Source: Gaiellales bacterium (GTDB taxonomy: Bacteria; Actinomycetota; Thermoleophilia; Gaiellales; JAICJC01). Taken from it: a stretch of DNA of 64,000 bases. Both the position numbers and the translations under genes were made by a program. This document shows positions 2,850 through 63,578 of this stretch, in pieces. The DNA is taken from assembly GCA_036403155.1 (NCBI GenBank), contig DASWRM010000079.1:1-64000 (forward strand), read 5' to 3'. Each line of letters starts with the position of its first letter. Position 1 is the stretch's first letter. Under the pieces are notes generated by a model. That model saw only the letters and a list, made by a program, of their open reading frames with translations. It did not search any database and had not been told where the DNA came from.

Positions 2850-2890
2850 GCACACTCGGCGCCCGGCCTCGACCCGTCACAGCTCTGTGC

Positions 2891-2950
2891 CGAACCGCTC
2901 ACGGTAGCCGAGGCGGGCTCCGAACCGCTCACGGTAGCCGAGGCGGGCTC
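2891..2950. repeat. Perfect 30-bp tandem duplication
   Basis: The 30-bp unit starting CGAACCGCTCACGG and ending GGCGGGCTC occurs at 2891-2920 and again at 2921-2950 with no mismatch. The last six bases of the second unit (GGGCTC) are also the first six of the 141-bp repeat element that follows. It is intergenic, 42 bp after the mutase stop. Perfect identity suggests a recent duplication. Confidence 0.9.
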
Positions 2951-3085
2951 TGAGCCCTTTTCCGGCCGCTATCGGACTTCGAGGGCGCCCAACTGTCACG
3001 GCCAGCGCGCGACGTGCGCACCGACGTCACGAATGCGCGCCGCCGGCCGACACGGGCTCAGACCCCTTTTGCGGCCGATAGCGGA
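2945..3085 (+). repeat. Composite 141-bp dispersed repeat, copy A
   Basis: Two 32-bp modules in the same orientation, at 2945-2976 and 3054-3085, start 109 bp apart. Each reads GGGCTCnGAnCCC, then TTTT, then a CGGCCGnTATCGGA-like end, i.e. two short palindromes around a T-run. A second copy with the same 141-bp length and 109-bp module spacing, in opposite orientation, lies at 14212-14352. The spacers also share stretches such as CACGAATGCGCGC versus CACGATTCGCGCGC. It lies between the mutase and cupin genes. No coding potential is seen. Confidence 0.85.
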
Positions 3086-3124
3086 CGTGTGAGGCGGGGG
3101 CGGGGCTCTGTAGACTCGCGGCCC

Positions 3125-3448
3125 ATGGATGCCTTCGAGATCGGCGACGTCGAGGCGCAGCGCGTCGCTGCCGGCCGGCTGTACGAGGAGTTCCTCCGCG
3201 TCGACTCGATGAGCGCGGGCCTCTACGTGCTCGAGGCCGGAGCGACCGACCCGCAGTCGCCCCACGCCCAGGACGAGATCTACTACGTGATCTCCGGCCG
3301 CGGGCAGGTGCAGGTCGCCGGAGAGCACCGCGCGGTGCGCCCGGGGTCGGTGATCTTCGTCGGCAAGGGGGTCGACCACCGGTTCCACTCGATCGAGCAG
3401 CGCCTCGAGCTGCTCGTGCTGTTCGCGCCCGCCGAATCGGAATCCTGA
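3125..3448 (+). CDS. Small cupin-domain protein
   Basis: A 107-residue single-domain cupin. Cupin motif 1 (HAQDEIYYVISGRGQVQV) and motif 2 (PGSVIFVGKGVDHRF) give the metal-site pattern H...E and H. Such small cupins bind a metal and a small ligand or act as dioxygenases or isomerases; the substrate cannot be told. It sits between the two mutase subunit genes with its own -10 box TAGACT (3111-3116), 8 nt before ATG, indicating a leaderless mRNA. A link to acyl-CoA metabolism is by position only. Confidence 0.85.
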   Translation: MDAFEIGDVEAQRVAAGRLYEEFLRVDSMSAGLYVLEAGATDPQSPHAQDEIYYVISGRGQVQVAGEHRAVRPGSVIFVGKGVDHRFHSIEQRLELLVLFAPAESES

Positions 3449-3502
3449 GCCGCGCGCTGCTGCGCCCGGCGCCGGCCGCCGCTGGGTAGACTCGCGGTCG
3501 AT

Positions 3503-13815: not shown

Positions 13816-14207
13816 GCGATCCCGGTGGCATCGACCGGCTGTTGGAGGAGGAGCGGCGCCTGCTCGACCGCCTGACGCCGGAGCAGGCGCGCGATGCGGC
13901 CGCTCGCGGAGGGCTGATCATCGACACCCGCAGCCACGAGCAGCGGCGGGCGGGAGGCACCGTGCCGGGCGCGGTGCGGATCCACCGAAACGTCCTCGAG
14001 TGGCGCGTCGACCCGCGGTCGGGGCATCAGGATCCGCGCATCGCTGCGGCAACGGGGCCGCTCGTGATCATGTGCGAGCAGGGCTACTCGTCGAGCCTCG
14101 CGGCGGCGACGCTGAAACGGCTCGGGATCGAGCAGGCGACGGACATGGCCGGCGGCTTCGAGGCATGGCTGGCGGCGGGACTGCCGGTCGAGCCGGTGAC
14201 CGACTGA
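13812..14207 (+). CDS. Rhodanese-like domain protein
   Basis: A single rhodanese domain of 131 residues. LIIDTRSHEQRRAGGTVPGA is the CH2A-like entry and VIMCEQGYSSSLAA contains the active-site Cys in a six-residue loop, so sulfur or persulfide transfer is possible. It overlaps the end of tsaC by 4 bp, so co-expression with the tRNA-modifying enzyme is likely; a functional tie to tRNA sulfur chemistry is only a guess. The stop is 4 bp before repeat element copy B. Confidence 0.9.
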   Translation: MSDPGGIDRLLEEERRLLDRLTPEQARDAAARGGLIIDTRSHEQRRAGGTVPGAVRIHRNVLEWRVDPRSGHQDPRIAAATGPLVIMCEQGYSSSLAAATLKRLGIEQATDMAGGFEAWLAAGLPVEPVTD

Positions 14208-14211
14208 AGCG

Positions 14212-14352
14212 TCCCATATCGGCCGGAAAAGGGGTCGGAGCCCGTCACGGCCCCCGCGCGCGAATCGTGGCTCCCCCGCGGGCCTCACGCAGAAGCTGTG
14301 ACCAGACCGCAGCCGCAGCGTCCGATAGCGGCCCGAAAAGGGCTCAGAGCCC
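14212..14352 (-). repeat. Composite 141-bp dispersed repeat, copy B
   Basis: Reverse-oriented second copy of the element at 2945-3085. Modules lie at 14212-14243 and 14321-14352, again 109 bp apart. Module sequences start TCCnATAnCGGCC, pass through AAAAGGG and end GAGCCC, differing from copy A modules at only a few positions each. The element fills most of the intergenic space between the rhodanese gene and glyA. An exact GGGCTCAGAGCCC palindrome occurs in module 14321-14352. Confidence 0.85.
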
Positions 14353-14461
14353 GATCCGGGTGGCGGCACAGGATCGTTAGGCACCCGTGACGTGTCGCCG
14401 CGTCGCTGTTGCGGGCTTCCGGTAGCATCGCCCGACCCGCAGGGATCGGACAGGGGAGGCG

Positions 14462-31657: not shown

Positions 31658-32213
31658 CGACGCGGGCCGCCGAGGAGCGCGCGATCCCCGCTGTCAATAC
31701 CGCAGATCGGTGACCCAATTATTGGAGCCCGACTCCCGTCGTGTGGCCGTAACGGATCGCCACACATTCGTGACGACTCGGCGGCCTGGTTGACCCGTCG
31801 CCGGCACCACCCCAATTGTTGGAGACCAACCCCTGCCGGTGGGGTGAGCGGTGGTCGTGGCGATCCTGTGACGGATTGGCACGGCGTCGTGACGCGGCGG
31901 GCCGGCCTTCCCGCGGCCCCGGCGGCACAGGCGTGACGCAGCCGCCGTACGGATCATCAACCGCGCCGGTACCATGCGGCCATGGCATTCATCAACGCCG
32001 CATCCTCAGCCGCCTGACACATCGACCACGCCGCCCGGGTGGCGGCCGCGCTCGAGCAGCACCGGATTCGCCGGGAGCTGGCCCCACGGCCGTCGCGGCC
32101 GGCTCGACTGCTGGCCCGCCTTGGAATGCTCCAGCGCCGAAGGTGTGGTGCCGATGAGGGGGGCGGGCACGCGCCAACCTTCCGGCCAGGCGCCTCGTCT
32201 ACGGTAGAGAACG
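31658..32213 (+). other. 556-bp intergenic region with degenerate repeats
   Basis: No convincing long gene. Two diverged repeats are visible: CCCAATTATTGGAGCCC near 31714 and CCCAATTGTTGGAGACC near 31811, each followed downstream by GTNACGGATYGSCAC and TCGTGACG (31749-31783 and 31868-31902). CCAATTNTTGG is near-palindromic. A possible 11-codon leaderless ORF lies at 31982, and the frame beyond its TGA stays open for about 90 codons with coding-like GC3, so a broken small gene is possible. A -10 box TACGGT (32200-32205) serves the next gene. Confidence 0.5.
31982..32017 (+). pseudogene. Possible short or interrupted leaderless ORF
   Basis: ATG 31982 lies 6 nt after TACCAT (31970-31975) and opens MAFINAASSAA, ending at TGA 32015. 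The same frame continues past the TGA as a basic, helical-looking sequence (AAALEQHRIRRELAPRPSRP from 32042), as if a small protein had acquired a stop. It may equally be noise. Confidence 0.3.
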
Positions 32214-63290: not shown

Positions 63291-63334
63291 CGCCGCAGTC
63301 TAGGAGGAGCGGGGCGAGACGCGATGTGCAGTCC

Positions 63335-63533
63335 CGCATCACAGCGCCGTCACGACCGGCAACGAGTCTGCAGCGATCGCATGCGTGAAAAAAACGTGCC
63401 CGGCACCTTTTTTTCACCGACCGCGGACGTCACGTCTGGTCGCGCATTACAGCGGCGGTACGACCCGCAACGATCCTGCAACGATCACATGCGTGAAAAA
63501 AACGTGCCCGGCACCTTTTTTTCACCGGCCGTG
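63335..63533. repeat. 108-bp imperfect tandem repeat with A/T-tract palindromes
   Basis: Two units start 108 bp apart (CGCATCACAGCG at 63335, CGCATTACAGCG at 63443). Each contains a nearly perfect 33-bp palindrome, identical in both: GTGAAAAAAA, GTGCCCGGCAC core, TTTTTTTCAC (63385-63417 and 63493-63525). The palindromes are identical while the rest of the unit has diverged, implying selection or gene conversion on the hairpin. A-tract and T-tract arms would make it an intrinsic terminator in both directions. It lies between two gene starts that point away from each other. Confidence 0.88.
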
Positions 63534-63578
63534 GTTTCGCGGCATGGCGCGCTTCCGCCGCTCGCTATGCTCGCCGAG

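Follow-up and report, generated by a model that had tools for sequence, protein, structure and literature searches.

Two repeat doublets in the window

The window, a 64,000-nucleotide stretch of DNA, represents contig C79 of a 3.2-Mb genome of 79 contigs, whose nearest named relative is a Thermoleophilia MAG. It carries two intergenic copies of a repeat, each with two 32-bp modules (Table 1). Copy A is neighbored by a methylmalonyl-CoA mutase-type gene and a small cupin-like ORF, and copy B by a rhodanese-like ORF and glyA; the names cupin-like and rhodanese-like come from reading the sequence, and neither ORF was matched in NCBIfam. The positions of all four modules in an initial annotation of this DNA were borne out by consensus matching, as were the 141-bp length, the 109-bp spacing and the opposite orientation of the two copies. 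In the window, the proposed 32-bp consensus has exactly four matches, with 0-3 mismatches, where none is expected (100 dinucleotide shuffles).

The module palindromes are CCGNTANCGG and GGGSTCNGAGCCC, the latter with a G-G mismatch in some copies, and the foot of the hairpin is formed by AAAA ahead of GGGCTC. The module hairpins are short, with a 5-bp stem and a folding energy of about -6.6 kcal/mol as DNA (z -1.7). The modules had been taken as the ends of a 141-bp element. That figure correctly describes the span of the modules, but similarity between copies begins at about -6 and ends at about +180, counted from module 1, which gives a unit of ~185 bp that extends beyond module 2 on the 3' side. 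In copy A, a perfect tandem duplication of 30 bp (2890-2949) starts within module 2 and extends into the tail.

Table 1. Repeat features in the window (positions in the window; strand as in element orientation)
Feature	Position	Strand	Remarks
Copy A, module 1 (5' module in element orientation)	3054..3085	-	consensus match; minus-strand reading TCCGCTATCGGCCGCAAAAGGGGTCTGAGCCC
Copy A, spacer (77 nt)	2977..3053	-	length fixed, sequence diverged; contains TTCGTGAC and CCGTGAC motifs
Copy A, module 2	2945..2976	-	exact consensus match
Copy A, 3' tail	2909..2944	-	boundary approximate; overlapped by 30-bp tandem duplication 2890-2949
Copy B, conserved 5' edge	14206..14211	+	AAGCG preceding module 1; from comparison between copies
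Copy B, module 1	14212..14243	+	consensus match
Copy B, spacer (77 nt)	14244..14320	+	between modules 1 and 2
Copy B, module 2	14321..14352	+	consensus match
Copy B, 3' tail	14353..14390	+	approximate; orthologous slot in sister species 192 bp shorter
97-bp-family element	31693..31836	+	modules CCAATTATTGGAGCCCGA at 31715 and CCAATTGTTGGAGACCAA at 31812

A dispersed family with a fixed period

The genome was surveyed by pattern searches only, with modules counted at up to three mismatches. As the initial annotation had proposed, the family is dispersed and multi-copy: the search found 21 modules in the genome, against 0 for the reversed control, and copies A and B are two of about ten dispersed 109-bp doublets. 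In each of ten pairs (eight from the search at up to three mismatches and two, on C65 and C73, with a degenerate first module) the period is exactly 109 bp and the two modules have the same orientation. At one further locus, two modules stand 257 bp apart inside a longer tandem unit, and C3 has a lone module. The genes around the elements are arranged in tandem, convergently or divergently; overlaps with called genes at C21 and C65 appear on inspection to be miscalls of the gene caller. Among 150 related genomes, the module family was absent from every other genome, with one lone GGGGTCAGACCCC match in G098. We also considered a CRISPR array, and rejected it because each locus has two modules and its spacer is homologous to those of other loci.

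Across the ten copies, the two modules are 81% and 91% identical, whereas the spacers are about 49% identical with zero indels. The patchy spacer similarity described initially is real: compared without gaps, the mid-spacers are 46-47% identical in register; a shift of 1-5 nt lowers this to 21-33%, and shuffling gives 27.5%. The conserved spacer positions form short motifs (TTCGTGAC, CTGTGAC, GCGC) rather than one block, and GTGAC motifs recur at set positions. The closest spacers are 60% identical, and we know of no recent copy.

A second module family, of the CCAATTATTGGAGACCAA type, has ten pairs at exactly 97 bp and two at 98 bp, counting those linked to RAYT genes (see below). All are direct in orientation, with modules 90% and 92% identical and a spacer 49% identical. 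Four loci form a heterodimer subfamily in which both modules occur in a fixed order. The sequence shared by these loci begins 22 nt before module 1 and stops shortly past module 2; beyond these limits identity falls to background. Since the four heterodimers share order, spacer and 5' edge, with background identity outside, we conclude that copying took in the whole doublet as one unit. The window element at 31693-31836, with CCAATTATTGGAG modules, is of this heterodimer type, which is common to three other loci in the genome. At L068 (C37:181398-181875), four modules of the 97-bp family are arrayed in tandem, in units of 153-154 bp; the spacers there are in part nearly identical, which points to recent local amplification.

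Linkage to RAYT genes

The genome contains five Y1_Tnp genes. One, a RAYT (REP-associated tyrosine transposase) between rpoC and rpsL at C30:2282-2881(-), has an intact ORF of 199 aa with HWH and Tyr motifs; it scores above the cut-off for PF01797 (Y1_Tnp) and matches NF047646 at E=6e-18, below the cut-off of that model. The RAYT profile had no match among PDB sequences. A 109-bp pair lies directly 5' of this gene on the same strand, with modules seen on the 5' side only. Thus, this genome does encode the RAYT-type transposase that the initial annotation had suggested looking for, and the 109-bp pair immediately precedes it; a Y1 HUH/Tyr transposase gene with a neighboring copy of the dispersed repeat, the mark of a REPtron, is found at this locus.

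Upstream of each of two paralogous RAYTs (63 and 67% identical) lies a 97-bp pair made up of CCAATTATTGGAGACCAA-type modules. The fourth RAYT has a 76-bp pair of AAAAAGGTGCCAGGCTCCTTTTT, and other pairs of the AAAAAGGTGCCAGGCTCCTTTTT family occur at 101, 108 and 114 bp. No module pair was seen at the fifth Y1_Tnp gene. When ~27 other RAYT relatives, nearly all of the same class, were scanned for direct doublets upstream, the best scores stayed at shuffle level except in the HWH clade; the direct-doublet arrangement is therefore not general. The RAYT on C49 (L050) has the C-terminus ...GEKKVPGTFFSPTD, which resembles an in-frame translation of its own hairpin repeat.

A sister species with its own version of the repeat

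An orthologous RAYT occupies the same rpoC site in the sister species G001, which appears to be the same genome as that of locus L112 (Thermoleophilia bacterium LS_ISSM_2_bin.20), the region upstream of the RAYT being identical. The orthologs share 68% amino acid identity over 165 residues, with a dN/dS of about 0.34. Upstream of the G001 gene lies a doublet with a period of 110 bp and changed hairpin arms (GGGCTCAGAGCCC here, GACCTCAGAGGCC and ACCCTCAGAGGTCC in G001). Its position is kept: relative to the RAYT start codon, the CTCAGAG cores stand at -203/-94 here and at -204/-94 in G001, with an intervening sequence that is 38% identical. Scored alone, the RAYT-linked doublet of G001 reaches 14/18, equal to the shuffle maximum; we accept it because of the conserved position and the dispersed 110-bp copies.

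These dispersed copies carry G001's own module version. An open search in G001 for pairs 90-120 bp apart found three, all at exactly 110 bp, including the RAYT-linked one; all are direct, and their spacers, again including the RAYT-linked one, are 51-53% mutually identical. In each species, the repeat version tracks its own RAYT, so that RAYT and module have diverged together: in G001, the RAYT and the dispersed copies share the changed module and the 110-bp period. Within the source genome, the spacers (about 49% identical) have diverged like the RAYT-upstream region between species (38-58%), and we therefore regard the copies as old.

Two G001 loci (L144, L155) hold hybrid doublets, with a CTCAGAGGCC module followed by AATTATTGGAGTCAAACACCG, in which the modules of two families are combined. 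One orthologous intergenic slot is occupied in both genomes, by a 110-bp doublet in G001 (L154, C48:34291-34419) and by a 97-family module with a degenerate partner here (L084, C48:21957).

Comparison of element-bearing slots

A search of G001 for the flanks of 16 elements recovered 12, and seven slots were comparable on both sides. Each of these seven slots is short in G001, at 5-77 bp versus 233-628 bp here, with insertion ends that are approximate rather than resolved to the single base. At copy B the size difference is 192 bp, near the 185-bp unit. At copy A (window 2850-3476), 32 bp separate the flanking genes in G001 as compared with 628 here, and G001 lacks the adjacent cupin-like ORF together with the repeat. 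The short slots may be empty sites, and loss in G001 would give the same picture.

A probable RAYT-coupled mobile doublet

On this evidence, A and B are likely to be copies of a dispersed non-autonomous element of ~185 bp, built as direct (head-tail) REP doublets that are coupled to a RAYT, which would copy or move the doublet in trans. The family as such is probably one of small mobile elements. A non-autonomous mobile or REP-like element with recognition hairpins, as initially suggested, is still the best reading given the dispersed copies, the RAYT linkage and the candidate empty sites; strict BIME/REPIN membership does not hold, as the modules are direct, lack the GTAG foot and do not form the 3' terminus.

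The coupled enzyme would be the rpoC-rpsL RAYT, a predicted HUH/Y1 single-strand endonuclease of the TnpA_REP type. Each element would offer it two hairpin modules on one strand and in one orientation, 109 bp apart (97 in the sister family, 110 in the sister species). We infer that the RAYT takes both hairpins jointly on single-stranded DNA, like TnpA of IS200/IS605, cleaves there, and copies or moves the doublet in trans to intergenic sites. Such joint recognition would explain selection on the distance. Because the modules are direct, they cannot form a single long REPIN hairpin between the two; the arrangement suggests that the system can do without long-stem pairing of two modules, and that selection may act on joint recognition by the enzyme.

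The ends of IS200/IS605 elements carry both hairpins on one strand and in one orientation, where they are recognized by the Y1 transposase, and non-autonomous derivatives exist. Modules of the same orientation are likewise found in every pair here, as in IS200/IS605 ends and PATEs. Unlike IS200/IS605, however, the distance here is fixed at 97-110 bp and the 3' tail is ~36 nt, and the RAYT has the class 2 motif Y-xx-NP instead of the YxxxQ of TnpA_IS200.

The elements resemble REPINs and BIMEs (PMC3116915) in their short palindromic modules, fixed-distance doublets, less conserved spacer and intergenic location, in the link to a single-copy RAYT whose version the module follows and, judging from the 97-family heterodimers, in having the doublet as the copied unit. 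REP doublets in P. fluorescens SBW25 show distance peaks at 71 and 110 bp, and 93% are inverted (Bertels and Rainey 2011, PMC3116915). Such inverted doublets fold into one hairpin, whereas all 109-, 110- and 97-bp pairs here are direct, and direct (HT) REP dimers are absent or under-represented in the published surveys (PMC3733652; PMC6006769). With TnpA_REP REPtrons (Di Nocera 2013, PMC3733652; Quentin 2018, PMC6006769) they share hairpin repeats by an HUH/Tyr Y1 gene, dispersal, and one family per RAYT. They depart from canonical REPs and REPtrons in that the GT[AG]G foot is absent (no GTAG/GTGG), modules are seen only 5' of the gene, and HUH reads HWH.

The tyrosine motif of the RAYT, Y-[LI]-P-LNP, resembles that of subclass 2.1, in which TIRYT proteins have Y-x-x-LNP (PMC3733652, PMC6006769); TIRYTs differ in their terminal inverted repeats, the repeats here being direct and upstream only. 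The Y1 survey located by an open-literature search (PMC6006769) reports no REP-like sequences near subclasses 2.1 and 2.3, and its main text makes no mention of actinobacteria. The present family would extend RAYT/REP systems to an actinobacterial class outside the coverage of the cited surveys. More tentatively, the Thermoleophilia HWH RAYT clade might use direct, distance-locked doublets as a left-end/right-end pair, intermediate between IS200/IS605 and inverted REPINs, in which the distance itself (97, 109 or 110 bp) is recognized while the spacer sequence turns over. Models of how RAYTs copy REP sequences, a problem still without a solution, have been built on inverted doublets; direct doublets of locked distance, whose position relative to the RAYT start is kept across species while the arms change, provide a natural experiment.

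Alternative explanations

Both module and distance look constrained, since the spacers are about 49% identical without indels and the modules 81-92%. Conserved modules with diverged spacers are unlike a dead transposon relic, so that in-place use or homogenization must be added to the mobile-element reading; the modules are either still used in place or homogenized. The same pattern, seen in the 109- and 97-bp families alike, would be expected if the doublets were fixed host regulatory or chromosome-structuring sites, bound in place by a domesticated RAYT or another dimeric protein, with the distance set by a looped or phased complex, and had spread long ago to become immobile. Purifying selection on the RAYT and the GTGAC motifs at set spacer positions would also fit such sites. 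We nevertheless consider this unlikely, because at seven comparable slots the positions are unshared with the sister species and the gene contexts are mixed.

It is very improbable that the elements are structured non-coding RNAs or intrinsic terminators. On the strand opposite the module, GGGCTCTGAGCCCTTTT does read as a terminator-like hairpin with a T run (T4), and copy A is correctly oriented downstream of the mutase gene, but copy B points the wrong way relative to the genes beside it, contexts elsewhere are mixed, and a terminator has no need of a second copy at exactly 109 bp. A terminator role was rejected on orientation relative to the flanking genes. An Rfam search gave no match, and spacer covariation did not clearly exceed that of shuffled columns: the top stems scored 0.68 and 0.96, against 0.58 and 0.92 for the best of 20 column shuffles, and were not taken as structure. 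Least plausible is a MITE of an ordinary DDE transposon or mere local tandem duplication: the repeats are small, dispersed and intergenic, and local tandem arrays do exist in the genome (e.g. the 153-154-bp period at C37:181398), but the element edges lack terminal inverted repeats, the modules are direct, the linked gene is a RAYT rather than a DDE transposase, and spacers are homologous in register from one locus to another, which separate local duplications would not produce.

Other repeats

Elsewhere in the window, at 63300-63540, two GTGAAAAAAACGTGCCCGGCACCTTTTTTTCAC palindromes form a direct repeat 108 bp apart. C45 and C50 carry related pairs at varying distances, and the C49 RAYT has a similar palindrome on its 5' side.
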